From contig JAHDPO010000004.1 of NCBI GenBank assembly GCA_018434325.1, positions 124,001 to 188,000 of the forward strand: 64,000 nt of DNA. Reading direction: 5' to 3'. The translations under genes and the position numbers were made by a program. Shown piece after piece: positions 27,577 to 43,555 of this stretch. The DNA comes from Clostridia bacterium (lineage in GTDB: Bacteria; Bacillota; Peptococcia; DRI-13; UBA5745). Position 1 is the stretch's first letter; each line of letters opens with the position of its first letter. Under the pieces are notes generated by a model, which worked only from the letters and a program-made list of their open reading frames with translations, ran no database searches and was not told the origin of the DNA.

Positions 27577-27582
27577 TATAAT
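27577..27582 (+). promoter_or_regulatory. -10 element before uppS
   Basis: TATAAT with no good -35; if used, the transcript starts near 27590 and excludes the most upstream ATG of the uppS frame. Confidence 0.4.
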
Positions 27583-27619
27583 GAAACATGATCTAAAAAT
27601 GCAGGAACAAGGTATAGCG

Positions 27620-28333
27620 ATGATGAAAAAAACTGCAAGCAAAAAGTTGACTCATTTGGCTATTATTATGGATGGTAATGGCCGCTGGGCTCAAAAAAGA
27701 GGTTTGCCCCGGGCTATGGGCCACCGGGCAGGCGTAGAAGCCCTGCGCAGGATCGTGGAGCTCTGTCCCGGCAATCAGATTGAGTATTTAACGGTATACG
27801 CTTTTTCCACGGAAAATTGGAAAAGGCCTCAGACGGAAGTACAAGCTTTAATGGCTTTGCTTAATGAATTTATCGATAAGGAACTGACGCTGTTGCATCA
27901 AAACGGTGTTTGTATCCGGGTTTTGGGCGATATTGAGCCCCTGGCGCCAAGCCTGCGCAAAAAAATCGATCACGCTATGGCGATTACCGCGCAAAATAAA
28001 AAATTGGTACTTTCCTTAGCCCTTAACTATGGCGGCCGGCGGGAGCTGCTTCAGGCGGCTAAGGCTTTAGCCTACCGGGCCTTGAAAGGTGAAAACCCGG
28101 AAAACTGGCAGGAAGATGACCTGGCGGCAGAGTTGTTTACCAAGGGTATGCCGGAGCCGGATCTGCTGATTCGTACCGGCGGTGATTTGCGGGTCAGCAA
28201 TTTTCTGCTTTGGCAGATTGCGTATACAGAATTATGGTGTACCGATATTTTTTGGCCCGATTTCGGAGAAGAAGAATTAATGGCAGCACTGGCCGCTTTC
28301 AAAGGCAGGCAAAGACGTTTTGGAGGTGTCTGA
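27620..28333 (+). CDS. uppS: Undecaprenyl diphosphate synthase (isoprenyl transferase)
   Basis: About 237 residues; two consecutive ATG at 27620 and 27623, chosen over 27581 because the likely -10 element lies at 27577. THLAIIMDGNGRWAQKRG carries the catalytic Asp, then GHRAGVEALR, VYAFSTENWKRP and LIRTGGDLRVSNFLLWQ. This cis-prenyltransferase makes the C55 carrier for wall precursors in the cytosol at the membrane. Followed 3 bases later by cdsA. Confidence 0.97.
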   Translation: MMKKTASKKLTHLAIIMDGNGRWAQKRGLPRAMGHRAGVEALRRIVELCPGNQIEYLTVYAFSTENWKRPQTEVQALMALLNEFIDKELTLLHQNGVCIRVLGDIEPLAPSLRKKIDHAMAITAQNKKLVLSLALNYGGRRELLQAAKALAYRALKGENPENWQEDDLAAELFTKGMPEPDLLIRTGGDLRVSNFLLWQIAYTELWCTDIFWPDFGEEELMAALAAFKGRQRRFGGV

Positions 28334-28336
28334 TTC

Positions 28337-29140
28337 ATGATGACGAGAATCATTAGCGCAGTTGTAGGCATACCGGTTATTCTCCTGCTGGTTTATTTGG
28401 GGCAGGCTTATTTTTTGGCGACGGTTATGGTTTTATCTCTTTTAGCTGCTACTGAATTGGGCAGGATGCTCAAGCGCATGGGCATAAAGGATATGCAGAC
28501 CTTTCTGTATGCCGGCGCTCTGCTTTTTCCTTTATTGCTTTATTATGAAGCCTCCTGGCTGCCGAATTTTCTGGCCTTATTCGTTTTTTCCGGCGCTTTA
28601 ATATCTTTAAATCAATATCCCGAGTCAAAATTAGGTGATTTGGGAGCTAACTTTTTCAGCATACTATATATAGCTTTTGGCTTTTCTCATTTCGTACTGC
28701 TTCGGCAAATGGATCAAGGGCTTCTCTTGGTTATCTATGCCTTTGTCGTTATTTGGCTGACCGATACGGGCGCTTATTTTACCGGCACCTATTTAGGAAA
28801 ACGGCCTTTTTTCCAGGAGATCAGCCCTAACAAAACTTTGGAAGGGGCTATCGGCGGCCTGGTTGCCGGCGTAATCGGTGCAGTTTTGTTCTGCGTATTG
28901 GTAAACCGCAAGATGGATTTAAATCATACAGGCTTTTTAATTTTGCTGTCGCCTTTTTTGTCGGCGGCAGGCCAGTTCGGCGATCTTTTTGAAAGCTCCT
29001 TAAAGCGCCAGGCCAGGGTCAAGGACTCCAGCCGGCTGATTCCCGGCCACGGCGGCATTCTCGACCGTTTTGACAGCGCTTTATGGGTTATTCCTTTGCT
29101 CTACCATTTATTGCAGCTGCGGATAAACATTTTTATGTGA
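28337..29140 (+). CDS. cdsA: Phosphatidate cytidylyltransferase
   Basis: 267 residues, about eight membrane spans, with the C-terminal CdsA signature SRLIPGHGGILDRFDSALW and SPNKTLEGAIGG before it. Makes CDP-diacylglycerol from phosphatidic acid and CTP, feeding PssA. Begins 3 bases after uppS. In most Firmicutes dxr comes next; here rseP follows directly. Confidence 0.97.
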   Translation: MMTRIISAVVGIPVILLLVYLGQAYFLATVMVLSLLAATELGRMLKRMGIKDMQTFLYAGALLFPLLLYYEASWLPNFLALFVFSGALISLNQYPESKLGDLGANFFSILYIAFGFSHFVLLRQMDQGLLLVIYAFVVIWLTDTGAYFTGTYLGKRPFFQEISPNKTLEGAIGGLVAGVIGAVLFCVLVNRKMDLNHTGFLILLSPFLSAAGQFGDLFESSLKRQARVKDSSRLIPGHGGILDRFDSALWVIPLLYHLLQLRINIFM

Positions 29141-29201
29141 TCAGGGCATAAACTAATGATAAACCAAAATAACCAAATTTAGTTTAGTGAGGAAATCACC
29201 C

Positions 29202-30257
29202 ATGTTAACACAGGTCATCGCTATTGTATTTGTATTAGGTGTTATTGTTATGATCCATGAGTGGGGTCATTTCATGGCTGCCAGAAGCATCGGCATTGCT
29301 GTGCAGGAGTTTGCCATCGGTGTAGGCCCCGCTCTTTGGAAAAAGCAAGGCAAAAATACTCTTTTTTCCGTGCGTTGCTTACCCGTAGGGGGCTATTGCC
29401 TTTTTGACTCCGACTTGGAAGGCCTGGATCACCGGGGCCGGCCTCTGTCCATTTTGGGCAGAAAAGCTCCCGCTAAAATCTATGTCTCTCTGGCGGGGCC
29501 GGTAATGAATTTTGTCTTGGCCTCACTGCTTTTTATGCTGCTCTTTTCTTTTATCGGCCTGACCGTAGGCTATGAGGCGGTAATCGGTGAGGTGCAGCCC
29601 GGATCTCCGGCTGAGTCTGCCGGTATTCTGGCGGGAGACAGGATTTTATCCATCGATGAGGAATCCCTTGCTTCCTGGCAGGATCTTAGCAGAATCTTAA
29701 GCGCCAAGGCCGGTCAGGAAAATCTGGAATTCGTCATGCAGCGGGGAGATCAGGAAGTTATCGTTCAGGTGACGCCTCGTTACAATGCAGAAGAAGGCCG
29801 GGCCCTTATCGGCGTGGTGGTGGATGGCAGCAAAACCATAACGGAAAAGGTCAATCCTTTCCAAGCCGTCTTTTTGGGACTGAAGCAAACCTTCATCATG
29901 ATAGCCGCTATGGTGGGCGCTATTATTCAGATGATTACGGGCCAGATCAGCGTCAGTGAAAATCTTTCCGGTCCGGTGGCTCTCGTTCAAATTATCGGCG
30001 AAACGGCCTCCAGCGGTTTTGTCAACACTTTGTTCCTCACCGCTTTTTTGTCAGTTAATCTGGGTATTATGAATCTGCTGCCGGTGCCGGCTTTAGACGG
30101 CGGTAAAATTGTTGTTTACATCATTGAGCTTTTGCGGCGCAAGCCCATGAAGCTGGAGGTGGAAGGCTGGCTTAATATGGTCGGCTTTGCCTTATTGATA
30201 TCCTTGATGCTTCTTCTGACCTTTAAAGATATCTTTAGAGTCTTTGGCGGTTCCTGA
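29202..30257 (+). CDS. rseP: Site-2 intramembrane zinc protease RseP/RasP
   Basis: 351 residues from MLTQVIAIVFVLG. HEWGH (His19-Glu20...His23) in the first membrane helix is the zinc site. A PDZ domain (~110-195, with GEVQPGSPAESAGILAGDRI) and NLLPVPALDGGKI (second metal motif) follow. It cleaves membrane-anchored anti-sigma factors and signal peptide remnants. The stop overlaps the ispG start. Confidence 0.96.
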   Translation: MLTQVIAIVFVLGVIVMIHEWGHFMAARSIGIAVQEFAIGVGPALWKKQGKNTLFSVRCLPVGGYCLFDSDLEGLDHRGRPLSILGRKAPAKIYVSLAGPVMNFVLASLLFMLLFSFIGLTVGYEAVIGEVQPGSPAESAGILAGDRILSIDEESLASWQDLSRILSAKAGQENLEFVMQRGDQEVIVQVTPRYNAEEGRALIGVVVDGSKTITEKVNPFQAVFLGLKQTFIMIAAMVGAIIQMITGQISVSENLSGPVALVQIIGETASSGFVNTLFLTAFLSVNLGIMNLLPVPALDGGKIVVYIIELLRRKPMKLEVEGWLNMVGFALLISLMLLLTFKDIFRVFGGS

Positions 30258-31378
30258 TGATAAATTATGCACCCGAAGAACAAGACAGCTTTATGATCAA
30301 GCGGCGCTTCAGCCGCCGGCTGCTGGTAGGCAGTGTGCCCGTAGGGGGCGACGCTCCCGTTTCTATTCAGTCCATGACCAATACCCTGACGGCCGACGCC
30401 GCCGCTACCCTGGAGCAAATCCGGGGCTTAGCCGCCGCCGGCTGCCAGATTATCAGAGTAGCCGTACCGACCCAGACGGACGCCCAGGCATTGGCGGAGA
30501 TAACGGCCGCCTCTCCCATACCGGTAATTGCCGACATACATTACGATTACCGTCTGGCCTTGTCTGCTTTAAAAGCGGGTATAGCCGGTTTGCGGATCAA
30601 TCCCGGCAATATCGGGGCAGCTTGGAAAATCAAAGAGCTGGTGACTGCCGCAAAAGAACGCAAAGTACCGATCAGGATAGGGGTTAACGGCGGTTCCCTG
30701 GAACCGGCCTTGTTGGATAAATACGGCGGCCCCACGGCGCCTGCTATGGTGGAAAGCGCCATGAAGCATATCGGTATTTTGGAGGATCTGGATTACCGGG
30801 AGATCAAGGTTTCCTTGAAAGCCAGCCACCTGCCGGTGATGCTGGCAGCCTACAGGGAAATCGCCGGCAAAATCGATTATCCCCTCCATTTGGGGGTTAC
30901 GGAAGCGGGCCTTAAATCCCAAGGCTTAGTCAAATCGGCGGTAGGCGTAGGCGCTCTCTTGGCCGAGGGTATCGGCGATACCATCAGGCTGTCTTTTACC
31001 GGCGATCCTATTGATGAAATCTACGGCGCCCGGCAAATTTTGGCCGCTCTTGAACTGATCCCCGGCGGACTGCAAATCATTGCCTGCCCTACCTGCGGCA
31101 GGACCAAGGTAGATCTGACTGCCTTAGTGGAGGAAGCTCAGGAAAAATTCGCTGATTTGCCGGTTCCCCCGGACAAAACCATAACCGTGGCCATTATGGG
31201 CTGCCCGGTCAATGGGCCCGGGGAGGCCAAGGGAGCTGATTTCGGCATTGCCTGCGGTAAGGACGCCGGCATATTGTTTGCAGCCGGCAAGCAGATAGCC
31301 AGACTGCCGGCAGATCAATTGGTGGATTCGTTGGTGACCCTTGTTTCTCAAGAGTTAAACCGTCTACCTAGGGGGTAA
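30257..31378 (+). CDS. ispG: 4-hydroxy-3-methylbut-2-enyl diphosphate synthase IspG
   Basis: 373 residues, ATG overlapping the rseP stop; an internal MIKRRFSRRLLVG at 30293 aligns better with usual IspG starts and may be the true start. A TIM-barrel part holds APVSIQSMTNT, and the 4Fe-4S ligands are Cys277, Cys280 and Cys316 (CPTCGR ... GCPVNGPGEA). This is the penultimate step of the MEP isoprenoid pathway. The gene order cdsA-(dxr)-rseP-ispG is conserved except that dxr is missing here. Confidence 0.97.
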   Translation: MINYAPEEQDSFMIKRRFSRRLLVGSVPVGGDAPVSIQSMTNTLTADAAATLEQIRGLAAAGCQIIRVAVPTQTDAQALAEITAASPIPVIADIHYDYRLALSALKAGIAGLRINPGNIGAAWKIKELVTAAKERKVPIRIGVNGGSLEPALLDKYGGPTAPAMVESAMKHIGILEDLDYREIKVSLKASHLPVMLAAYREIAGKIDYPLHLGVTEAGLKSQGLVKSAVGVGALLAEGIGDTIRLSFTGDPIDEIYGARQILAALELIPGGLQIIACPTCGRTKVDLTALVEEAQEKFADLPVPPDKTITVAIMGCPVNGPGEAKGADFGIACGKDAGILFAAGKQIARLPADQLVDSLVTLVSQELNRLPRG

Positions 31379-31380
31379 CC

Positions 31381-32094
31381 ATGGAAGATCAGCTAATCAT
31401 GGTATTTCGTATACTGCTTGCCACCGTCTTAGGCGGTGTGGTGGGCTATGAGCGGGAGCTGCATAATCGTTGGGCCGGTTTCCGAACCCATATTCTTGTT
31501 TGTGTAGGCTCCTGCCTGGTTATGATTACCTCAATTTATTTATCGACATCTTTTAGCGGCCAGGCCAATGCCGACCCCGGCCGCCTGGCTGCCCAGGTTG
31601 TCAGCGGCATCGGTTTTTTGGGCGCCGGCACGATTTTGCATTCCAGCTCCCATATTCGGGGCCTTACCACTGCCGCCAATCTGTGGATGATTGCCGGCGT
31701 GGGTCTGGCCGTGGGCTGCGGTCTTTATATCCCTGCCATCGTTACCACTTTCCTTGCTTATGTGATCTTGGAATACTTCGGTCCTTTAGAAAGCATGTTT
31801 CGCACTAAGCGGCTCAAAACCCCCTGGCTGCTGAACATTACGGCTATGGGCGATTCCTCAAGCCATAGCAACATTTTTGAGTTGTTGGATGTTTATGAGC
31901 TGGTCGTGCAAAATTTAAAAATGGATAATATACCTGGCGGCGTTGAGATGACTCTTGAAATCCAAGCTACTTCCTCATTTGACGAAGCACTTTTTATAGC
32001 AAAATTGCGTCAAATCAATAGTGTCAAGGAAGTAAGCCTTGCCTGCCTGAAAGAAGAGAACGGAGCCGAAAATAAAAGAGGCAAAAAATCCTAA
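31381..32094 (+). CDS. MgtC/SapB-family membrane protein
   Basis: 237 residues. MgtC domain: RILLATVLGGVVGYERELHN, RAGFRTHILVCVGS-like segment (here WAGFRTHILVCVGSCLVM), QVVSGIGFLGAGTILHSS and RGLTTAANLW, with about five spans, then a soluble ACT-like C-terminal domain. In pathogens MgtC aids growth at low Mg2+ and affects the F-type ATPase; in free-living Firmicutes the role is unclear. Two bases after ispG, so probably part of that operon. Confidence 0.9.
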   Translation: MEDQLIMVFRILLATVLGGVVGYERELHNRWAGFRTHILVCVGSCLVMITSIYLSTSFSGQANADPGRLAAQVVSGIGFLGAGTILHSSSHIRGLTTAANLWMIAGVGLAVGCGLYIPAIVTTFLAYVILEYFGPLESMFRTKRLKTPWLLNITAMGDSSSHSNIFELLDVYELVVQNLKMDNIPGGVEMTLEIQATSSFDEALFIAKLRQINSVKEVSLACLKEENGAENKRGKKS

Positions 32095-32132
32095 ACAGAG
32101 CACCACTGTATAAAAGGAGAATAAACATTACT

Positions 32133-35100
32133 ATGGTAAACCATCCTTGGCATAGTTTGCTTTTGGCAGCAAAGACCCCCCTGCCTTACGAGAAAAGGCT
32201 GGAGGGTCTGCAAATAAAGGAAGTGGTGATTTCCCAAGATAAGCAAACTTGGGAAATCGCTTTTCTCAGCAGTTTTTCCGTTACAGAAGAAGAGCGGAGC
32301 CAGATTTTAGAGATATTGCGGCATAGCTTCGGCCGGCATTTCCAGTACCATCTGAATATTGAGGAAAGAGACGTGGCCCCCGATGTGGGAGAAATGCTGA
32401 AAACAGCTTTATCTTCACCGGAGATTGTACCCAGCACCCTGGCCGATCCGGAAGAGGAGGAGGAGCTGCTTAATCAAAGGCTGAAAGAGAAGCTTATCGG
32501 GCCAAAAGGCAAAAAACAAGGTCCCAGCCTGATTTTAGGCCGGAAGATCAGCGGCAGCCCCCGGCCTTTGAAAGAGATCCGGGAAGAAAGCATGAACACA
32601 ATTATTGAAGGCAAGGCCTTCCGGATCAATGATCAGCGTTTATTAAAGGCCGGTACCCAGCTTTACGATTTCGACGTCACCGATTATACGAATTCTCTCA
32701 AGGTCAAAGTTTTTCTTGATCCCAAAAGGCAAAAAAGCCTCAAGGCCGACTGGTTGAAAAAAAATGCCTGGTACAGGATGAAGGGCAGCGTCAAATACGA
32801 TCAATTTACGAAAGAGCTGGCTTTTTTTCCCGACGACATCATGGAAGGCGATTTTAACCTCAGGCAGGATAATGCGCCTGAAAAGCGGGTGGAGCTTCAC
32901 CTCCATACGAAGCTCAGCGCCATGGACGCCATGGCCACGCCGGAAGAGCTGATCAGTCAGGCCGTTGCCTGGGGCCATGAGGCTATAGCCATTACGGATC
33001 ATGGCGTGGTTCAGGCTTTTCCCGAAGCTATGAAGCTGGCCAAGGTTTCTAAAGACAAAACCCCGCCAATAAAAGTCATCTATGGTCTGGAAGGCTATCT
33101 CATTGACGGCGACGGCAAAGCTTATATGGAAGAGGCCCGCCGCCCCAAAAAAGGCGTGCGGGGCCAAAAAGAGGAGCTTAGCGAAGGCGAGCTTTTGGAT
33201 CAGGCAGAACGCCAGGGCAGCTGGCATATTATCATCCTGGCTAAAAACTCTGTTGGCATTAAAAATCTATATAAACTGGTATCCTTGTCTCACCTGGACT
33301 TCTTCTATAAAAAACCCAGAATTCCCCGCAGCGAGCTGATTCGCTTGCGAGAGGGCCTGATTATCGGTTCGGCCTGCGAGGCCGGCGAATTATTTCAGCA
33401 AGTACTGGCCGGAGCCAGTGAACAGACCTTGGAAAGCACCGCCGCTTTCTATGATTACCTGGAAATTCAGCCCATTAAAAATAATGAGTATCTTTTGCGC
33501 AATGGCCGGGTAGCCGATGAGGAGGCTTTAAGAGACTTCAACCGGCGGATTTTGGCCTTGGGCAGAAGGCTGGACAAGCCGGTAGTAGCCACAGGAGACG
33601 TCCATTTTTTGCAGCCGGAGGATGAAGTGTTTCGGCGGATATTGCAGGCCGGTCAGGGCTACAAAGATGCGGATATCCAGCCTCCCTTATATTTGCGGAC
33701 GACGGAAGAGATGCTGCAGGAGTTTGAATATCTGGGAGAAGAAGAAGCTTACCGGGTGGTGGTGGAAGCCACCCAAGCGGTGGCCCGCCAGGTGGAGTAT
33801 TTAAATCCCATTCCCGGAGAATTGCAGACGCCGAAGCTGCCCGGAGCCAAAGAAGAGGTAGAGCGAATGGTTCGGGAAAAGGCGGCGGCTCTCTACGGCG
33901 ACGCATTGCCGGAGTGGATACGGAGTCGACTGGAAAAAGAGATTAAATCAATTACGGAGTACGGCTATGCCGATTTATATTATATTGCTCACAAGCTGGT
34001 GAAATACTCCAATGAAAACGGCTATGTGGTAGGCTCCCGAGGCTCCGTAGGTTCTTCCCTGGTGGCTTTTCTGACGGATATTACGGAGGTCAATCCTTTA
34101 GCTCCTCATTACCGTTGCCCTAATGCCGGCTGCAAGCATGTGGCATTGGGAGACGTCTCCGTCTATGGCTGCGGCGCCGATATGCCGTCCATCAACTGTC
34201 CCCATTGCGGCACTTTGCTGGTCAAAGACGGCTTCAATATTCCTTTTGAAGTTTTTCTGGGCTTTGAGGGCGATAAGGTTCCGGATATCGATTTAAATTT
34301 CTCCGGCGAGTACCAGACCCAGGCCCAAAAATACACGGAAGAGCTTTTTGGCCGGGAAAATGTGTTTAAAGCCGGCACCATATCCACGGTGGCTGACAAA
34401 ACGGCCTATGGCTTCGTCAAAAATTACTTTAAAGACAGGACGCTGGTAGTCAGAGAGGCGGAGGTTGAGCGCCTGGTTCAAGGCTGCGCCGGCGTCAGGA
34501 GAACCACCGGCCAGCATCCCGGGGGCATCGTGGTATTGCCCAAAGGCGACGAAATTACCAATTATACGCCGGTCCAGCGGCCGGCGGATGATCCTAATTC
34601 TGAATTCGTTACCACTCATTTTGATTATCATGCCATCGATAATTGTCTCGTGAAGCTGGATATCCTGGGCCACGACGATCCCACAGTCATCCGTTTGCTG
34701 GTGCAAATGACCGGCAAGGATATCAGAGAAATCTATATGGATGACCAGGCAGTTATCTCTTTGTTTCAAAGCCCCGATGCTTTAGGCATTGATAAAAAGG
34801 AAAGCGGCATAGAAACCGGCTCCCTTGGCGTGCCGGAATTCGGCACCAGCTTCGTCCGGGGCATGCTGCTGGATACGAAGCCCGCCACCTTTTCCGATTT
34901 GGTGCGTATCAGCGGCTTCTCCCACGGTACCGACGTCTGGCTGGGCAACGCCAGGGATATTCTGAAAGACAATCTGGGTACCATGAAAGAGGTTATCGGC
35001 TGCCGGGATGATATTATGATCACCTTGATTCAGGCCGGCCTTAAGCCGAAGCATGCGTTTAAAATCATGGAGCAGGTTCGCAAAGGCAAAGGCCTTTCCC

Positions 35101-35705
35101 GGGAGGATGTGGAGGCTATGGAGGCAGCCAATGTGCCGGAATGGTATATCGGTTCCTGCCAAAAAATCAAGTATCTTTTCCCCAAAGCTCATGCCGTAGC
35201 CTATGTGACCATGGCCTTTCGCATTGCCTGGTTCAAGGTTTTTGAGCCCTTGTCCTTTTATGCCGCCACCTTTTCGGTGCGAGGCGGCTTAGACGGCACC
35301 ATCGCCGCCGGCGGCAGAGCCAGGGTAGAAGAAGCCATGGCCGATATCCGGGCCAAGCGGGAACGCAAGGAGGCCAGCGCCCGGGATGAAGACCTTTATA
35401 CGTCCCTGGAACTGGCCCGGGAAATGCTGCTGCGGGGGTTTGCCTTTGCGCCGGTAAGCCTGGAGAAATCCAGCGCCAATCGTTTTTTGGTGGAAGAAAA
35501 GCAATTGCGCCTGCCTTTTAACGCCTTGCCGGGCCTGGGCCTGAATGCGGCGCAAAGCATAGTGGAGGGCCGGGAGGAGAAGCCCTATCGCTCAATGGAA
35601 GATCTGCGACGTCGGGGCAAGGTAGGCAAATCCCTGCTGGAGGTATTGCAGCAGCACGGCGCTTTGGCGGGCCTGCCGGAAAGCGATCAGCAAACCATCT
35701 TTTAA
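32133..35705 (+). CDS. polC: DNA polymerase III alpha subunit PolC-type, lacking the exonuclease domain
   Basis: 1190 residues versus about 1440 in B. subtilis. Order: N-terminal domain; OB fold (~150-245, IIEGKAFRINDQRLLKAG); PHP domain (VELHLHTKLSAMDAM near 255, AITDHG); zinc knuckle (CPNAGCKHVA ... CPHCG); catalytic palm with PDIDLNFSGEY near 717 and KLDILGHDDP; C-terminal helix-hairpin-helix (LRLPFNALPGLGLNAAQS). In PolC a DEDDh exonuclease is inserted inside the PHP domain; here only ~39 residues (~326-364) join YLIDGDG to HIIILAKNS. AAGGAG lies 13 bases before the ATG, a long spacer. The reading frame is intact, so this is not a frameshift artefact. Confidence 0.95.
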   Translation: MVNHPWHSLLLAAKTPLPYEKRLEGLQIKEVVISQDKQTWEIAFLSSFSVTEEERSQILEILRHSFGRHFQYHLNIEERDVAPDVGEMLKTALSSPEIVPSTLADPEEEEELLNQRLKEKLIGPKGKKQGPSLILGRKISGSPRPLKEIREESMNTIIEGKAFRINDQRLLKAGTQLYDFDVTDYTNSLKVKVFLDPKRQKSLKADWLKKNAWYRMKGSVKYDQFTKELAFFPDDIMEGDFNLRQDNAPEKRVELHLHTKLSAMDAMATPEELISQAVAWGHEAIAITDHGVVQAFPEAMKLAKVSKDKTPPIKVIYGLEGYLIDGDGKAYMEEARRPKKGVRGQKEELSEGELLDQAERQGSWHIIILAKNSVGIKNLYKLVSLSHLDFFYKKPRIPRSELIRLREGLIIGSACEAGELFQQVLAGASEQTLESTAAFYDYLEIQPIKNNEYLLRNGRVADEEALRDFNRRILALGRRLDKPVVATGDVHFLQPEDEVFRRILQAGQGYKDADIQPPLYLRTTEEMLQEFEYLGEEEAYRVVVEATQAVARQVEYLNPIPGELQTPKLPGAKEEVERMVREKAAALYGDALPEWIRSRLEKEIKSITEYGYADLYYIAHKLVKYSNENGYVVGSRGSVGSSLVAFLTDITEVNPLAPHYRCPNAGCKHVALGDVSVYGCGADMPSINCPHCGTLLVKDGFNIPFEVFLGFEGDKVPDIDLNFSGEYQTQAQKYTEELFGRENVFKAGTISTVADKTAYGFVKNYFKDRTLVVREAEVERLVQGCAGVRRTTGQHPGGIVVLPKGDEITNYTPVQRPADDPNSEFVTTHFDYHAIDNCLVKLDILGHDDPTVIRLLVQMTGKDIREIYMDDQAVISLFQSPDALGIDKKESGIETGSLGVPEFGTSFVRGMLLDTKPATFSDLVRISGFSHGTDVWLGNARDILKDNLGTMKEVIGCRDDIMITLIQAGLKPKHAFKIMEQVRKGKGLSREDVEAMEAANVPEWYIGSCQKIKYLFPKAHAVAYVTMAFRIAWFKVFEPLSFYAATFSVRGGLDGTIAAGGRARVEEAMADIRAKRERKEASARDEDLYTSLELAREMLLRGFAFAPVSLEKSSANRFLVEEKQLRLPFNALPGLGLNAAQSIVEGREEKPYRSMEDLRRRGKVGKSLLEVLQQHGALAGLPESDQQTIF

Positions 35706-36919: not shown

Positions 36920-37708
36920 ATGGAGTATGTTCTTTCTGCCGCAGGTATGACGATACATTATTTTGATACGGACCCCGCCAATGCGGTAGAGCGCCAGATT
37001 TTGATTTTTCTCCACGGTTGGGGGGCCTGTAAGGAAACATTTAGCCCGGTTATTGCGTCATTAAAAGAAAAGTACCGCATCATCGCTCCCGACTTGCCGG
37101 GCTTTGGCAAGACCGGAGAGCCTTCGCGGCCCTGGACGGTAGCTGATTACGCCGATTTCTTTCAGGACTTTCTCAAAGCCCTGGGTCTTGAGAACCGGGC
37201 TTTTTCCGCTTGCGGCCACAGCCACGGCGGCAGGCTGCTGATTAAATGGGCGGCCCGCCGGCCCAAAGGCCTGAAACGCCTTATCCTGATTGACAGCGCC
37301 GGCATTAAGCCAAAGCGCAGCCTTGGCTGGTATATCAAGGTCTACCGCTATAAAATCGGCAAGAGGATTATCCGGCTGCCGGGACTGAACAAGCTTCTGG
37401 CGCCTTTATTGGCGGATAAGATAGCGAAAGCCGGTTCCACCGATTATCAGCAGGCCTCGCCGCTGATGAAGAGGACCATGGTTTTGCAGTTGGATGAGGA
37501 TTTGAAGCCTTGTTTGCCAAGGATCAAGGTTCCTACGCTGCTTTTTTGGGGAGAAGGGGATCAGGATACGCCTTTAGCTCAGGGTCAATTGATGGAAAAA
37601 GAAATTCCCAATGCCGGTTTGGTGGTACTGTCGCCGGCGGGCCATTACTCTTATCTGGATCAGCTTCCTCAATTTTTAGGGGCCTTAGCCTACTTTATGG
37701 AACATTAG
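36920..37708 (+). CDS. Alpha/beta-fold hydrolase (envelope operon)
   Basis: 262 residues; CAGGAG 8 bases upstream. Alpha/beta hydrolase fold: FLHGWGACKETFSP oxyanion region, nucleophile elbow ACGHSHGGRLLI, an Asp in FWGEGDQDTP and the catalytic His in SPAGHYSYLD. No signal peptide, so cytosolic. It is first of five tightly spaced genes (Mur ligase, Ddl, LtaS-like, VanY). Substrate unknown; an esterase or amidase acting on an envelope precursor is an inference from context. Confidence 0.9.
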   Translation: MEYVLSAAGMTIHYFDTDPANAVERQILIFLHGWGACKETFSPVIASLKEKYRIIAPDLPGFGKTGEPSRPWTVADYADFFQDFLKALGLENRAFSACGHSHGGRLLIKWAARRPKGLKRLILIDSAGIKPKRSLGWYIKVYRYKIGKRIIRLPGLNKLLAPLLADKIAKAGSTDYQQASPLMKRTMVLQLDEDLKPCLPRIKVPTLLFWGEGDQDTPLAQGQLMEKEIPNAGLVVLSPAGHYSYLDQLPQFLGALAYFMEH

Positions 37709-37720
37709 GGAGGAATCGCC

Positions 37721-39361
37721 TTGTTTTCTGTTGTTTTATTTGTATTGCTGGGTTCCTTTATCTATTTCTTCTGGGGCGGCTTTCGCCAGAGCGTCCATAT
37801 GCTGCAATTAAACAGCTATTATACCGAGCGCTTCCTCCAATGGTTAAAAGGCCAGCAGCGAAAAGAAGCTGTTTATCTCATGGCAGCCATGATCGTTATC
37901 AGTTTTAGCATAAGATACGTTATGTCCATATATCTTTATCTTATCTTCAACGCATTGATCTTTTTTGTGGTGGCGCTGATCAGAAAGAAGCAGCCGGACA
38001 AAAAACCTTTGGTCTATACCTGGCGTCTGAAGCGTTTAATGATCACGGCTTCCTTGATCTGCATCGCTTTCATTCTGAGCCTGGGCGTGTTGTTCCGAGG
38101 TACTTTTTGGTGGGAGCTGCCTTTTTTACTGGCCTTTTTGAATCTGATGGTGCATACCATAGTTATTGTAGCCAATTTCCTCAATGGCCCTATAGAGAGA
38201 AGGATTGCCAAGGGTTTTACCGACGACGCCAAAAGAATCCTGACCGGCCACCCCGGATTGAAAATCATCGGCGTTACCGGCAGTTACGGCAAAACCAGCA
38301 CCAAACACCTGATCAGCCAGCTTTTATCTTTGGATTATCAGGTTTTAGCCACGCCGGAAAGCTATAATACCCCTATGGGGGTGGTACGGACCATCCGGGA
38401 GAAGCTTTCTGCTACCCATCAGGTGTTCATTGTGGAAATGGGGGCCAAAAAACCGGGGGATATCAAGGAAATCTGTGATATTGTCCAGCCGCATATGGGA
38501 ATCATATCCTCCATCGGCGAAATGCACCTGGACACCTTTCACAATCTGGATAATATTATCCGCACAAAATTTGAGCTGGCCGACGCAGTGGCCAAAGAAG
38601 GCCTGCTCTTTCTGAACTACGACAACGAACATATCCGCAAACAAAAGCTGTCCCAACCCGTTGTGCGCTACGGCTTGGGCAAGGCCGGCGAGGACAATCA
38701 GCAATTGGATCTTTGGGCGGAGAATGTGGTATCCGGACCCAAGGGCTCGCAATTTGATCTCTGCTTCGCCGACGGCAGAAGGATCGCTTGCCAGACAAAG
38801 CTTCTAGGCAAGCTCAACGTCCTTAATATAGCCGCGGCGGCGGCAGTAGCCACTAAACTGGGCGTGGAGCCGTCCAGACTCAGCCAGGCTATCAGCCGGC
38901 TGGAGCCGGTACCTCACCGCCTGCAGCTTTTACCCCCGGGTCCCCGCTATCAAATCATTGACGACGCCTACAATTCCAATCCGGAAGGCTCCAGGCAGGC
39001 TTTGGAAACCCTGGCCGGTTTTCCGGGATATAAAGTGATCATCACTCCCGGCATGGTGGAACTGGGCGATCAGGAAGAAGAATTGAATCGCCGTCTGGGC
39101 CGTCATGCAGCCCGTTTCTGTGATTTTATCATCATTGTCGGCCAAAACCGCAGTCCCGCCATAATGGATGGGGCCCGGCGGGCCGGCTACAACGAAAGCA
39201 ATATTTATGTGGCTGCCGATATCCATGATGCTTTGGAGAAGGCCGATCAGCTGGCCGGTGATCTGGCTGAAGGAGAAGGCCCTATGACGGTGCTGTTGGA
39301 AAACGATTTGCCCGACAACTATTTAGATGCCGGCAAGGGTAAGCAAGCGAGGAGGAAGTAG
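37721..39361 (+). CDS. Membrane-anchored MurF-like Mur ligase
   Basis: 546 residues; TTG start with GGGAGG 7 bases before. Residues ~1-160 contain about five membrane spans in place of the UDP-sugar-binding domain of MurF. Then comes a Mur ligase central domain with the P-loop GVTGSYGKTSTKHLI (~182-196), the EMGAKKPGDIKEICDIVQP helix, and the C-terminal domain signature IIDDAYNSNPEGSRQAL of MurF. These parts imply ATP-dependent ligation of an amino acid or D-Ala-D-Ala-like dipeptide to an acyl acceptor at the membrane. The gene for a D-Ala-D-Ala ligase follows 1 base later. The acceptor is not known; this is not the ordinary soluble MurF. Confidence 0.88.
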   Translation: MFSVVLFVLLGSFIYFFWGGFRQSVHMLQLNSYYTERFLQWLKGQQRKEAVYLMAAMIVISFSIRYVMSIYLYLIFNALIFFVVALIRKKQPDKKPLVYTWRLKRLMITASLICIAFILSLGVLFRGTFWWELPFLLAFLNLMVHTIVIVANFLNGPIERRIAKGFTDDAKRILTGHPGLKIIGVTGSYGKTSTKHLISQLLSLDYQVLATPESYNTPMGVVRTIREKLSATHQVFIVEMGAKKPGDIKEICDIVQPHMGIISSIGEMHLDTFHNLDNIIRTKFELADAVAKEGLLFLNYDNEHIRKQKLSQPVVRYGLGKAGEDNQQLDLWAENVVSGPKGSQFDLCFADGRRIACQTKLLGKLNVLNIAAAAAVATKLGVEPSRLSQAISRLEPVPHRLQLLPPGPRYQIIDDAYNSNPEGSRQALETLAGFPGYKVIITPGMVELGDQEEELNRRLGRHAARFCDFIIIVGQNRSPAIMDGARRAGYNESNIYVAADIHDALEKADQLAGDLAEGEGPMTVLLENDLPDNYLDAGKGKQARRK

Positions 39362-39362
39362 C

Positions 39363-40568
39363 ATGAAGATCCAAATAGGTATTTTTTTTGGCGGCAAGAC
39401 TGTGGAGCATGAAGTTTCGGTTATTACCGCAGCCCAAACGGCTGCCGCAATGGATACGGCAAAATATGAGCTGATTCCTGTTTATATAACGAAGGATAAT
39501 GAAATGTATACAGGCAGCGAGCTTTTTGATGTGGCAAAATACAAGGACCTGCCGGGACTGCTTTCCCGCAGCCAGCGCATCGTGCTGCTGCGGGAGAAAG
39601 GCAAGATTCAGCTGCTGCGTTACCCGGCAAAGCTGTTTACCCAGCCTTTCATCGCCCAGCTGGATTTGGCTTTTCCCATTGTTCACGGCACGAATGTGGA
39701 AGACGGCAGTCTTCAGGGCTACTTCCAGCTCCATGGTTTGCCTTACATTGGTTCCGACGTAGGAGCTTCCGCTTGCGGTATGGATAAATGGGTGACCAAG
39801 TGCCTGCTTCAGGGGGCCGGACTGCCGGTGCTGCCGGGCTATTGTTTCCAGAGCTCTTACTATTTTGGTGATTCTCAGCGGATAATCTCTAAGCTGGAAG
39901 AGCTGTACGGTTATCCCTTAATGGTAAAGCCGGTAAATCTGGGCTCCAGTGTAGGAATCAGCGCCGCTCATGATTCGGAAGAGCTTAAAGAGAGTATTGA
40001 GCTGGCAGCCGCTTTTTCCGATCGGATACTGGCGGAGCCGATGCTGACCAATATGCGGGAAATCAATTGTGCCGTCATGGGCGACAGCGATTATACGGAG
40101 GCCTCGGCTTGCGAGGAGCCTCTTTCCACAGGAGAAATCCTCAGCTATCAGGACAAATATCAAGGCGGCGGCAAGAACCAGGCCGCAGCCTCGAAAAGCA
40201 GCGGCGGCAGTAAAGGCATGGGAAGCTCCCTGCGCAAGCTGCCGGCAGAGCTGACGGCTGAGCAGGAGGAAGAGGTCAAGATATTGGCTCAGAAGGCGTT
40301 TTTGGCTTTGAATTGTCATGGCGTTATTCGAGTGGATTTTCTGCTGGATCAAGGCGAAAATCAAATTTACATTAATGAAGTCAATACAATCCCCGGCTCC
40401 TTAGCCTTTTATCTTTGGGAAGCGGCAGGCAAATCTTTCCGGCAGATGACGGAAGAGCTTGTTCAGCTGGCCCTTAAACGCCAACGGGCTCAGGACAGAC
40501 TGATCTGGTCAAACGAGGTCAATATTTTATCGGGTATGCATTGGGGAACTAAAGGGGCTAAGAACTAA
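39363..40568 (+). CDS. ddl: D-alanine-D-alanine ligase family (ATP-grasp)
   Basis: 401 residues; GAGGAGG before the ATG. N-terminal FFGGKTVEHEVSVITAAQ, serine-loop YIGSDVGASACGMDK, ATP-grasp LMVKPVNLGSSVGIS and metal site RVDFLL...INEVNTIPGS. A Ser/Gly/Ala-rich insert (~275-300, around KNQAAASKSSGGSK) lies in the omega-loop region, and the C-terminal SLAFYLWEA differs from the usual housekeeping Ddl. It makes D-Ala-D-Ala or a related dipeptide. Placed between a MurF-like ligase and an LtaS-like gene, so it probably serves the same pathway. Stop overlaps the next start. Confidence 0.9.
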   Translation: MKIQIGIFFGGKTVEHEVSVITAAQTAAAMDTAKYELIPVYITKDNEMYTGSELFDVAKYKDLPGLLSRSQRIVLLREKGKIQLLRYPAKLFTQPFIAQLDLAFPIVHGTNVEDGSLQGYFQLHGLPYIGSDVGASACGMDKWVTKCLLQGAGLPVLPGYCFQSSYYFGDSQRIISKLEELYGYPLMVKPVNLGSSVGISAAHDSEELKESIELAAAFSDRILAEPMLTNMREINCAVMGDSDYTEASACEEPLSTGEILSYQDKYQGGGKNQAAASKSSGGSKGMGSSLRKLPAELTAEQEEEVKILAQKAFLALNCHGVIRVDFLLDQGENQIYINEVNTIPGSLAFYLWEAAGKSFRQMTEELVQLALKRQRAQDRLIWSNEVNILSGMHWGTKGAKN

Positions 40569-42361
40569 TGGTAAAAAACACATGGTTTCAAGTGGGATTA
40601 AGAGCACTGGAATGTTTAATTGCCGGTATTTTTGGTTTGATCATATTAGAACGCTGCAACCAGGGAGGTACGGCGGCTGCTTACCAATGGCTGGTGCAAT
40701 CGCCTCGGTTGGCTGTGCTGGAGGTTATCATCTTAATCCTTCTTTACGGCTTATTTCGTATTTTCTTTCGCCGGCCCTTGCTGCCTTTTGCTATTTATGG
40801 CGCCGCGATCTACTTCTTGGGTACGGCTAACTACTATAAGATCTTTTATCGCAGTGAGCCTCTGATTCCTTATGACGCCTTCAATTTGCCGGCGGCAGCC
40901 TCCATAGCCGATAATATGCATTTTTCTTTTGATGCCGGCTTAGTTTTTAATCTGTTGTTTTTTCTCTTTTGTTTATTGCTGGTTTGGTTTATACAAAAAA
41001 AGCTTTATCAGCTTTTGCCGGTAAAGCTTGTCTGGCGTGTGGCCGTAATATTCTGTATTGTTACGCCTTTTTTCGGTTATTTTAACAAAATACCTCACCT
41101 CCAGGCTTTAGGGGCTGAGGATATCCGCTACAATCAATTCCGCAATTACCGGGTCAACGGCTTTACTGTTTCCATGCTGATGAATCTCTCCGACAGCGGA
41201 GTGGACATACCCGCAGAATATGGAGCTGCCGCATTGCAGGCCGCCCGCCGGGAGTTGCAGGATGCTGAAGCGCCGGCTCCTTTGGGCCATCCGGACAAGA
41301 AGCCCCATATTATTGTTTTCCAAATGGAGGCTTACGGCGATCCCCGCATAATCGATCCCCGCATCGAATACCCCAAAGATCCTTTTACTCCTTTGGCGCC
41401 TCATAGCAGCGAGATTCAATTTTTTGATACCGTGACCTCCACCATCGGCGGCGGTACCGCCAATACGGAGTACGAGGTGCTTACCGGTTATAATATGTAT
41501 TTTTGTCCGCCGGGGGTTACGCCCTTTATTCGCTATGTCAATAAACCCAAACCCAGCTTGGCCCGGGATTTAGCGGATCTTGGCTATAGAACCGTAGGCA
41601 TGCATCCCCATGTGGGCAGCTTTTATAATCGCAGCATCGTTTATCCAAATCTGGGCTTTCAGCGGTTTGTCACTCAGGAAGAATTTGAAGATCCCCGCTA
41701 CGTAGGCTATTACATCTCCGATGAGGATTACAGCAAAAAAATTATTGAGCTGTACGAAGAAGAAAAAGAGAAAGGGCCCTTGTTCCTTTTCACCGTATCT
41801 ATCCAAAACCACGGTCCCTATAGCTATCCGGAAAGCCACCGGCCTTATCCCGTCAGGCTGAAGGATGGGCTGGCTTTGGATGAAGTCCAGGTGCAGGAGC
41901 TGGAAACCTATGGGGCCAATATCTGGGATAGCAGCGTTGCCCTGGCTTCGCTGATGGACTATTTTTCCCAGGTGGACGAGCCGGTGCTGTTCCTGGTATA
42001 TGGCGATCATCAGGCTTCCTGGTCTTGGGCCAAGGACGCATCCGGCAATGCGGAGCAGGATTTAAAAAAATATATCACAAAAAGCTTTTTTTGGGCAAAC
42101 TATCCATTGGAAGACAGTGGACGCAGCATGATCAGCGCTTCCGGCCTGTCTCCGGAAATCCTGCGGCGGGCAGGGCTGGAATTACCTTTATATGACAAAG
42201 GCATTGCCTTGCAATTTCAGGATATTCTGGCCTATAATGTTGCTGTGAAAGTCGAAAATGACGGCGCCGTGGATTACGTCAGCAGTGAGCGGCTGGACAA
42301 GTACCATATGATTCAGTATGATCGTATGTTTGGGAAAAACTATCTGGGCAGAGTCCGGTAA
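40568..42361 (+). CDS. LtaS-like sulfatase-fold phosphoglycerol transferase
   Basis: 597 residues; ATG overlaps the ddl stop. Five N-terminal membrane spans (to ~175), a linker, then an extracellular sulfatase domain. PHIIVFQMEAYGD, nucleophile Thr297 in GGGTANTEYEVLTG, and Asp480-His481 in YGDHQ match the LtaS metal site. Such enzymes transfer glycerol-phosphate from phosphatidylglycerol to a growing lipoteichoic acid or related polymer. It may add a phosphoglycerol group to whatever the operon builds; polymerase or mere transferase cannot be told. Confidence 0.9.
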   Translation: MVKNTWFQVGLRALECLIAGIFGLIILERCNQGGTAAAYQWLVQSPRLAVLEVIILILLYGLFRIFFRRPLLPFAIYGAAIYFLGTANYYKIFYRSEPLIPYDAFNLPAAASIADNMHFSFDAGLVFNLLFFLFCLLLVWFIQKKLYQLLPVKLVWRVAVIFCIVTPFFGYFNKIPHLQALGAEDIRYNQFRNYRVNGFTVSMLMNLSDSGVDIPAEYGAAALQAARRELQDAEAPAPLGHPDKKPHIIVFQMEAYGDPRIIDPRIEYPKDPFTPLAPHSSEIQFFDTVTSTIGGGTANTEYEVLTGYNMYFCPPGVTPFIRYVNKPKPSLARDLADLGYRTVGMHPHVGSFYNRSIVYPNLGFQRFVTQEEFEDPRYVGYYISDEDYSKKIIELYEEEKEKGPLFLFTVSIQNHGPYSYPESHRPYPVRLKDGLALDEVQVQELETYGANIWDSSVALASLMDYFSQVDEPVLFLVYGDHQASWSWAKDASGNAEQDLKKYITKSFFWANYPLEDSGRSMISASGLSPEILRRAGLELPLYDKGIALQFQDILAYNVAVKVENDGAVDYVSSERLDKYHMIQYDRMFGKNYLGRVR

Positions 42362-42384
42362 AGCCGGCAAGAGGAGATATGACA

Positions 42385-43440
42385 ATGATAGGGCAAGAAT
42401 GGAAAATGGTTATACGGCTGTTTACTCTGCCGGCGGTGATGGTGATAGCCTTGGGAGGTCTGATCTTTTGGTACGACGGGGCGGCCCTGGCGGCAGACCA
42501 GATAGTTGAGCAGGAGCAGGCGGCGGCGCCTGTGGCCATTGCTAAAGCTCATCCCATCGAGCCTTTGCTGCTACCCGGCGAAGACAGCCGTTTTCCCACG
42601 GCTTACCGGGGAGAGACGAAGGATTTGGCCGTAACTGCCCGGCAGGTTGATCAGGGTTTTTTGATTCTGGTGAATTATGACCATCTTTTGCCGGAGGATT
42701 ATTTGCCCGAGGAGCTAACGGTAGTCAATGACCTGGCGGAGGCGGCAAAGGAGTCGAAATTCAGCGTAGGCAAAGCCCGGCTTCAAGTCAACAAGACGGC
42801 GGCAGAGCAGCTGCTGGCCATGGCAACCTATGCTTATGAAAAAGACGGGATAACCGGCTATCTGCTGCAAAGCGGCCACCGGGATTTTTCTTATCAAAAA
42901 GCTTTATACCGCAACAAGGTCCAATATTATAAAAGCCTCGGCTATGGCGACGGCGACGCCGTAACCGCAGCTGCCGTATGGGTAGCCAGGCCCTTTGAAA
43001 GCGAGCATCATACCGGTTTGGCCATGGATGTTTCCAGCCGCAGCCACCCCGGTTTGCAAACATCCTATTACGGGACGGATAATGGCCTTTGGCTGGACGA
43101 AAATTGCTGGCGCTTCGGTTTTGTGGTCCGTTACCCGGAAGATAAGACTGACATCACGAAAATCGGCTATGAGCCCTGGCATCTCCGTTATCTGGGCCGG
43201 CCCCACAGCGATTATATCTATCAGCAGGGCTGGTGCCTGGAGGAGTATTATGATTTTTTGTATCGAGAAGGAGGCTATACCTTCCGGGATGCAGAGGGCG
43301 CAATCTGGCAGGTGGATTACCAACCCCTGGGCTCAGGCGCTATCAAAGTTCCGGCCCACAGCCCGTATACGATTTCCGGTGATGGCAGTAAAGGTTTCGT
43401 TATCACCACTTTATTGGAGCCTATCTCCGTAGCTCATTAA
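42385..43440 (+). CDS. VanY-type D-alanyl-D-alanine carboxypeptidase
   Basis: 351 residues from MIGQEWKMV; this ATG lies 8 bases after GAGGAG, whereas the earlier ATG at 42379 is too close. One N-terminal anchor (~8-28), then a peptidase M15 domain: SGHRDFSYQ, zinc motif SEHHTGLAMD (His208, Asp215) and EPWH (Glu263, His266). It trims the terminal D-Ala from wall peptides outside the membrane. Last gene of the five-gene operon; a repeat and a terminator follow. Confidence 0.93.
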   Translation: MIGQEWKMVIRLFTLPAVMVIALGGLIFWYDGAALAADQIVEQEQAAAPVAIAKAHPIEPLLLPGEDSRFPTAYRGETKDLAVTARQVDQGFLILVNYDHLLPEDYLPEELTVVNDLAEAAKESKFSVGKARLQVNKTAAEQLLAMATYAYEKDGITGYLLQSGHRDFSYQKALYRNKVQYYKSLGYGDGDAVTAAAVWVARPFESEHHTGLAMDVSSRSHPGLQTSYYGTDNGLWLDENCWRFGFVVRYPEDKTDITKIGYEPWHLRYLGRPHSDYIYQQGWCLEEYYDFLYREGGYTFRDAEGAIWQVDYQPLGSGAIKVPAHSPYTISGDGSKGFVITTLLEPISVAH

Positions 43441-43526: not shown

Positions 43527-43528
43527 TG

Positions 43529-43555
43529 TACGCCGGTTATGCCGGCGTATTTTTT
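43529..43555 (+). terminator. Terminator of the envelope operon
   Basis: TACGCCGG/CCGGCGTA stem with a 5-base loop and a T-run. Confidence 0.88.

Follow-up and report, generated by a model that had tools for sequence, protein, structure and literature searches.

Five closely spaced genes lie on the plus strand at positions 36920-43440 of a 64,000-nucleotide (nt) stretch of contig JAHDPO010000004.1 from a Clostridia bacterium (the window; coordinates are positions within it unless a locus is named). The open reading frames (ORFs) encode an alpha/beta hydrolase (abH), a membrane-anchored MurF-like ligase that we call mbMurF, a Ddl-type D-alanine-D-alanine (D-Ala-D-Ala) ligase, an LtaS-like protein and a VanY-like protein, separated by 12, 1, -1 and 17 nt (Table 1). 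A first-pass annotation of this DNA had proposed five packed envelope genes, and the ORFs, their Pfam domains, the spacing and a terminator-like hairpin bear this out. We set the start of Ddl at the ATG that has a ribosome-binding site; the mechanical ORF opens earlier, at 39327. The number of terminator-like sites in the region is not significant (8 vs 8.9 in shuffles). A scan for sigma-70 promoters returned 16 sites against 8.5 in shuffles, none of which could be linked to the operon start.

Table 1. Features of the operon, with two shortened MurF ORFs of relatives discussed in the text
Feature	Position	Strand	Evidence and remarks
Alpha/beta hydrolase (abH)	36920..37708	+	Pfam Abhydrolase_1 1.5e-27; opens the conserved three-gene module
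mbMurF, whole ORF	37721-39361	+	546 aa; TTG start with good ribosome-binding site
mbMurF, predicted N-terminal membrane domain (residues 1-179)	37721..38257	+	Five hydrophobic segments, AlphaFold2 model, conservation
mbMurF, Mur central and C-terminal domains, MurF type	38258..39361	+	Pfam, TIGR01143, fold matches, catalytic positions
Ddl, D-Ala-D-Ala ligase subfamily	39363..40568	+	TIGR01205, NF002528; Pfam Dala_Dala_lig_N and _C
LtaS/GacH-like phosphoglycerol transferase-type membrane protein, sulfatase fold	40568..42361	+	Pfam Sulfatase 9e-26
VanY-like D,D-carboxypeptidase	42379..43440	+	Pfam VanY 6.5e-34; one N-terminal hydrophobic segment (11-29)
Intrinsic-terminator-like hairpin 3' of the operon	43528..43550	+	10-pair stem, T tract
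Shortened MurF ORF, G020	L191:8744-9736		330 aa; without C-terminal domain
Shortened MurF ORF, G021	L192:5908-6708		266 aa; without C-terminal domain and P-loop

The catalytic half of mbMurF is that of a Mur ligase. It exceeds the Pfam cut-offs for Mur_ligase_M (PF08245, 3.3e-40) and Mur_ligase_C (PF02875, 9e-11), and its best NCBIfam model is TIGR01143 (murF) with 219.3 bits, below the curated cut-off of 288.6. Among 81 mbMurF members the best E-value to that model is 2.3e-76 (about 256 bits). The MurT model NF045635 gives 29.2 bits, where its cut-off is 800. When seven mbMurFs are aligned with four canonical MurFs, K191 (the P-loop lysine), N216, E239, H269, K283, R400 and D415 are common to both, as is the MurF-type motif DxYNxNP; the catalytic roles of the positions are in part presumed. 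These positions and the motif are conserved in 81 rows. The KGSR of the MurF C-terminal domain is replaced by ENDLPDNY. A tree of 66 Mur rows, in which long branches are flagged, places mbMurF as one clade (support 100/100) that pairs with MurF as its sister (98/93); MurE and MurD branch outside this pair. The AlphaFold2 model of the protein (predicted local distance difference test, pLDDT, 92.3; predicted template-modelling score, pTM, 0.87) finds its closest solved folds in the MurF structures 3zl8 (VIA Z 40.4, 385 residues, 4.7 A) and 4qf5 (VIA Z 38.5, 385 residues, 3.9 A). Our best reading is that mbMurF belongs to a sister clade of MurF that would add D-Ala-D-Ala at the membrane.

What sets mbMurF apart is its N-terminal part. 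The TIGR01143 match begins at profile position 74 of 418, leaving the region that holds uridine diphosphate (UDP) unmatched, and a search of the protein for the Pfam Mur ligase N-terminal domain gave no match. Five hydrophobic segments (1-19, 50-68, 69-87, 106-124 and 133-151) precede the P-loop instead. Hence, the first-pass annotation was right that about five membrane helices take the place of the UDP-binding domain. The feature is general among relatives. A profile built from eight of them found at least 569 mbMurF loci in GTDB genome contigs, and we examined the best 80 of these at least 569 loci, so the set is biased toward close relatives. Three loci (L099, L103 and L118) were left out because an intact ligase ORF was not recovered, and all 77 remaining members have three to five hydrophobic segments before the P-loop. 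Clostridia account for most of the loci and Bacilli for some; a few more lie on contigs assigned to other phyla, which may be misbinned.

Modelled alone, residues 1-179 reach a pLDDT of 94.6 and a pTM of 0.86. A Foldseek search of the PDB with this domain gave no match at E<=0.001, which means no known relative in that library and is not proof of a new fold; a Pfam scan of it found no family above its cut-off. Q29, Y33, T100, R102, R105 and P157 are invariant in 81 rows, and H26, W41, K94 and K95 are conserved at 90% or more. If the ligase domains are cytosolic, all ten residues would lie at the inner membrane face of the model, where the partly cationic patch they form could hold a lipid pyrophosphate. 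We conclude that the UDP-binding domain of MurF is replaced in mbMurF by a confidently predicted membrane domain.

The neighboring Ddl scores as a D-Ala-D-Ala ligase, with 247.3 bits to TIGR01205 (cut-off 245.65) and 283.9 bits to NF002528 (cut-off 262). It keeps the DKY loop, reaches only 164.5 bits with the D-Ala-D-lactate (D-Ala-D-Lac) model against a cut-off of 550, and is also far below the D-Ala-D-serine cut-offs. At the same time its signature, NTIPGSL[AS]FYLWE, differs from the NTMPGFTxLSMTPVLWE that two carriers have in their second Ddl: the loop after NTIPG is shortened (SLAFYLWE in the window), and a long insert follows DKY. The shortened loop presumably lies near the site that binds the second D-Ala in other Ddls. 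By its signature the module Ddl is a distinct subfamily. In 21 of 37 carriers tested, including Sinobaca (G080), Pseudalkalibacillus (G045) and Butyrivibrio (G081), it is the sole Ddl at E<=1e-20.

Conservation of the neighborhood had been proposed as a check on the association, and the association passes it for three of the five genes. Within a few genes of mbMurF we find abH in 69 and Ddl in 70 of the 77 loci, with median gaps of 12 nt between abH and mbMurF and 19 nt between mbMurF and Ddl; these gaps are shorter than 150 nt in 64/68 and 64/69 cases, respectively. Chance packing of the genes can be rejected because their order is conserved, in relatives of the window's own family (f1) as in the GTDB loci. 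The first-pass annotation had also counted the LtaS-like and VanY-like proteins as members of the set, and here we part from it: they stand beside the module in 0/77 and 2/77 distant loci and are rejected as core parts. Within family f1, an LtaS-like gene lies 3' of the module in 5/5 and a VanY-like gene in 4/4 relatives whose contigs extend that far. The conserved unit is abH-mbMurF-Ddl, and the LtaS-like and VanY-like genes are local or lineage additions. One carrier genome (G070, the genome of locus L119) has two mbMurF copies, each with a Ddl nearby on the same contig.

The hydrolase is a conserved partner of the ligase. Its triad, Ser101-Asp214-His242, is invariant at all three positions across 28 aligned module members; the family f1 genome G005 lacks abH at the module position. 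When 75 of the 107 proteins encoded by co-directional flanking genes were scanned with Pfam, no partner recurred except six cation-efflux proteins, so the scan gives no hint on the role of abH. The LtaS-like protein has GacH as its nearest solved chain (4.4e-19) and scores 30.7 bits with NF053595, below the cut-off of 970. The VanY-like protein passes the Pfam VanY cut-off and scores 144 and 115.8 bits with the NCBIfam vanY models, below their cut-offs of 400-425. Just upstream of the operon (27581-35705) are uppS, cdsA, rseP and ispG, together with one gene of MgtC type and one for a polC-type DNA polymerase; the polymerase gene holds the same place in several relatives.

The rest of the genome bears on the role of the operon. 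The order of genes in its dcw cluster is murE-mraY-murD-ftsW-murG-murC, and murF is absent. The only canonical MurF of the genome (395 bits, over the cut-off) is encoded on the same contig, 194 kb from the operon, between vanY and vanH of a VanR-VanS-VanY-MurF-VanH-VanA-VanX cluster. This van cluster is complete, of the D-Ala-D-Lac type and outside the window (G000:C44:353-360 kb; L042:5126-12249). It also holds the only other clear Ddl-type ligase, of D-Ala-D-Lac type; beyond these, PF07478 gives only weak matches in this genome (E 9.7e-11 to 8.2e-8). Profile scans found VanH, the D-Ala-D-Lac ligase and VanX all at L042 and none of them in the window operon. With murF missing from the dcw cluster, and with any other murF or clear Ddl-type ligase confined to the van cluster, we identify the operon as the housekeeping route by which D-Ala-D-Ala enters peptidoglycan synthesis; the lineage has lost its dcw murF. 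The first-pass annotation had stated that the operon would simply be the housekeeping pathway if no other murF or ddl existed. Others exist, in the van cluster only, which comes very close to that outcome. By way of the soluble MurF encoded there, D-Ala-D-Lac would be able to avoid the membrane route. The transpeptidase of the dcw cluster is a penicillin-binding protein with PASTA domains, so pentapeptide stems would still be required.

The same replacement is seen across family f1. Seven of its nine genomes carry mbMurF (one copy cut by a contig end), and canonical MurF exceeds the cut-off in two, namely the window's own genome, in its van cluster, and G006, which has it in the dcw cluster and has no mbMurF. 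A ninth genome, G003, is 80% complete and has neither type. All five dcw loci that we read from f1 carriers, the window's own included, pass directly from murE to mraY. Among 19 genomes of the order, 4 have mbMurF only, 12 canonical MurF only, 2 both and 1 neither (G013, with a fragment only). The two with both are the window's own genome and G020, whose canonical type is a fusion with alanine racemase. This fusion lies outside the dcw cluster (L195:2634-5153), and its domains were checked in G020 only; G015, G019 and G022 have similar ORFs of 829-843 aa, each together with a further full-length MurF. Between murE and mraY, G020 and the order relative G021 have intact but shortened MurF ORFs, without the C-terminal domain (Table 1), which are either remnants or repurposed proteins. 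In the tree, the mbMurFs of both genomes do not group with the f1 ones, and this suggests that mbMurF was gained twice.

Outside the order the pattern persists. Canonical MurF is absent in 47 of 49 carrier genomes of other lineages, reached through the GTDB loci; the exceptions, G079 and G088, have canonical MurF paired with another Ddl. We also surveyed 294 genomes of the class that holds Butyrivibrio XPD2002, with a completeness filter of 97. Here mbMurF is carried by 52 genomes, and 50 of these lack canonical MurF; both types occur only in G243 and G322. Canonical MurF is present in 236 genomes by tally over the cut-off or 234 by best E-value, and thus in 232-234 of the 242 non-carriers (Fisher p <1e-40 with either count, in a test that ignores relatedness). 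Among carriers with genomes no larger than 1.2 Mb, 11 have mbMurF as their only MurF. That mbMurF replaces canonical MurF in many genomes is well supported.

How might such an enzyme work? Soluble Mur ligases hold UDP with their N-terminal domain, and lipid II has no uridine. We consider it probable that the operon is a housekeeping branch in which mbMurF joins D-Ala-D-Ala to a lipid-linked N-acetylmuramic acid (MurNAc)-tripeptide, either lipid I or lipid II. Ddl would produce D-Ala-D-Ala; mbMurF, working at the inner membrane face, would use ATP to activate the stem tripeptide and attach the dipeptide; and the LtaS-like and VanY-like proteins might act outside. Since a membrane domain whose inner face is invariant and partly cationic takes the place of the UDP-holding domain, the acceptor would most likely be lipid-linked and not soluble UDP-MurNAc-tripeptide. 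The lipid-linked tripeptide would arise when MraY, perhaps followed by MurG, acts on the tripeptide. An analogy with MurT points the same way: according to PMC6085368, MurT amidates lipid I and II and no UDP-linked precursor. Nearly as probable is the broader proposal that in many Clostridia and some Bacilli MraY, and perhaps MurG, use tripeptide and mbMurF then completes lipid I or II, with UDP-MurNAc-pentapeptide not being the normal precursor. The first-pass annotation had suggested that the set may modify a lipid-linked polymer and not ordinary peptidoglycan. An acceptor linked to lipid is also our likeliest reading; the non-peptidoglycan part of the suggestion does not fit a dcw cluster without murF and a genome whose other murF and Ddl are in the van cluster.

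Several observations weigh against the lipid-linked proposal or the completeness of the replacement. MraY of carriers would have to take UDP-MurNAc-tripeptide, and among the loci examined mbMurF was not seen adjacent or fused to mraY or murG. Ten of the 242 non-carriers in the class have neither type of MurF, and the counts are uncorrected for relatedness. Four genomes outside the window's order (G079, G088, G243 and G322) have both types; with these four, and with the canonical MurF of G000 in a van cluster and that of G020 in a racemase fusion, the two types are not strictly exclusive. One could also argue that mbMurF replaces MurF yet still uses soluble UDP-MurNAc-tripeptide, and that its membrane domain merely docks the ligase beside MraY for channelling. 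This is the main rival, and we regard it as unlikely. The replacement pattern would look the same, the catalytic core is MurF-like, and a different protein, or none, might hold the nucleotide. Nevertheless, the UDP-holding profile region is unmatched and its place is taken by membrane segments in all 77 members, six invariant residues, among them T100, R102 and R105 at the predicted inner face, exceed what a plain anchor needs, and the MurT precedent favors lipid.

A lipid-linked acceptor of another kind is conceivable as well, with mbMurF and Ddl building or repairing a different polymer while an unseen enzyme provides ordinary MurF activity. The LtaS-like and VanY genes adjoin the module in family f1, and the window's genome does have a canonical MurF; that MurF is in the van cluster, however, a further MurF is missing from most carriers and a further Ddl from many, mbMurF is retained in genomes of about 1 Mb, and the LtaS-like gene is not conserved with the module. 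We therefore rejected an accessory polymer pathway, which we think improbable. More improbable still is the glycopeptide-tolerance-like module that the first-pass annotation had raised, in which Ddl would make a modified dipeptide for the ligase to load on precursors. The distinct Ddl signature with its shortened loop and the VanY in the operon would suit it. A van-type identity is rejected, since this Ddl scores as the D-Ala-D-Ala type, far under the D-Ala-D-Lac and D-Ala-D-serine cut-offs, and the resistance cluster is elsewhere in the genome. Finally, many carriers are metagenome bins and the two counts of canonical MurF differ slightly (236 vs 234), so that incomplete assemblies or the threshold of the search could make it seem absent. 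We give this hardly any credence: the same search finds canonical MurF in nearly all non-carriers, the dcw stretch was read without murF in five f1 genomes, and the carriers include the cultured Sinobaca DSM 17008, Pseudalkalibacillus DSM 14890 and Butyrivibrio XPD2002.

MurF is generally regarded as an enzyme that is universal, cytosolic and a target for drugs, and UDP-MurNAc-pentapeptide is regarded as the universal precursor. If mbMurF acts on a lipid-linked tripeptide, the wall peptide would be finished on a membrane lipid and not in the cytosol, which would change the textbook order of steps in peptidoglycan synthesis. About one in six genomes of the surveyed clostridial class (52/294) would complete the stem peptide on a lipid carrier, and models of wall synthesis, of the specificity of MraY and of MurF inhibitors would have to be revised for many bacteria of the gut. 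The presence of a separate soluble MurF in the van cluster of the window's genome would be explained as well.

We found no account of a membrane-anchored or alternative MurF, or of carriers without MurF, in a search of open-licence literature. Likewise, the accessible part of PMC12786226, on MurF phylogeny, makes no mention of a membrane-type MurF. Among known systems, canonical MurF (TIGR01143) shares with mbMurF the central and C-terminal domains, the catalytic residues, the DxYNxNP motif, a sister position in the tree, the best fold match and the partnership with Ddl. In contrast, mbMurF lacks the UDP-binding domain, has five predicted membrane helices instead and ENDLPDNY for KGSR, scores below the cut-off and is encoded outside the dcw cluster. 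The MurF-alanine racemase fusion (PRK11930 type) is likewise a MurF outside the dcw cluster in order relatives, but it includes a UDP-binding domain and is free of membrane helices. MurT, which with GatD forms the lipid II isoglutaminyl synthase, is a Mur ligase relative that uses a lipid-linked precursor, as the domain loss suggests for mbMurF; unlike mbMurF it is soluble, needs GatD and amidates D-Glu. The vanI-type cluster of Desulfitobacterium hafniense, within which PMC4229326 reports a murF, confers D-Ala-D-Lac resistance, whereas the window operon is without vanH, vanX and vanRS. Both encode a MurF together with a D-Ala-D-X ligase, as does the van cluster of the window's own genome.

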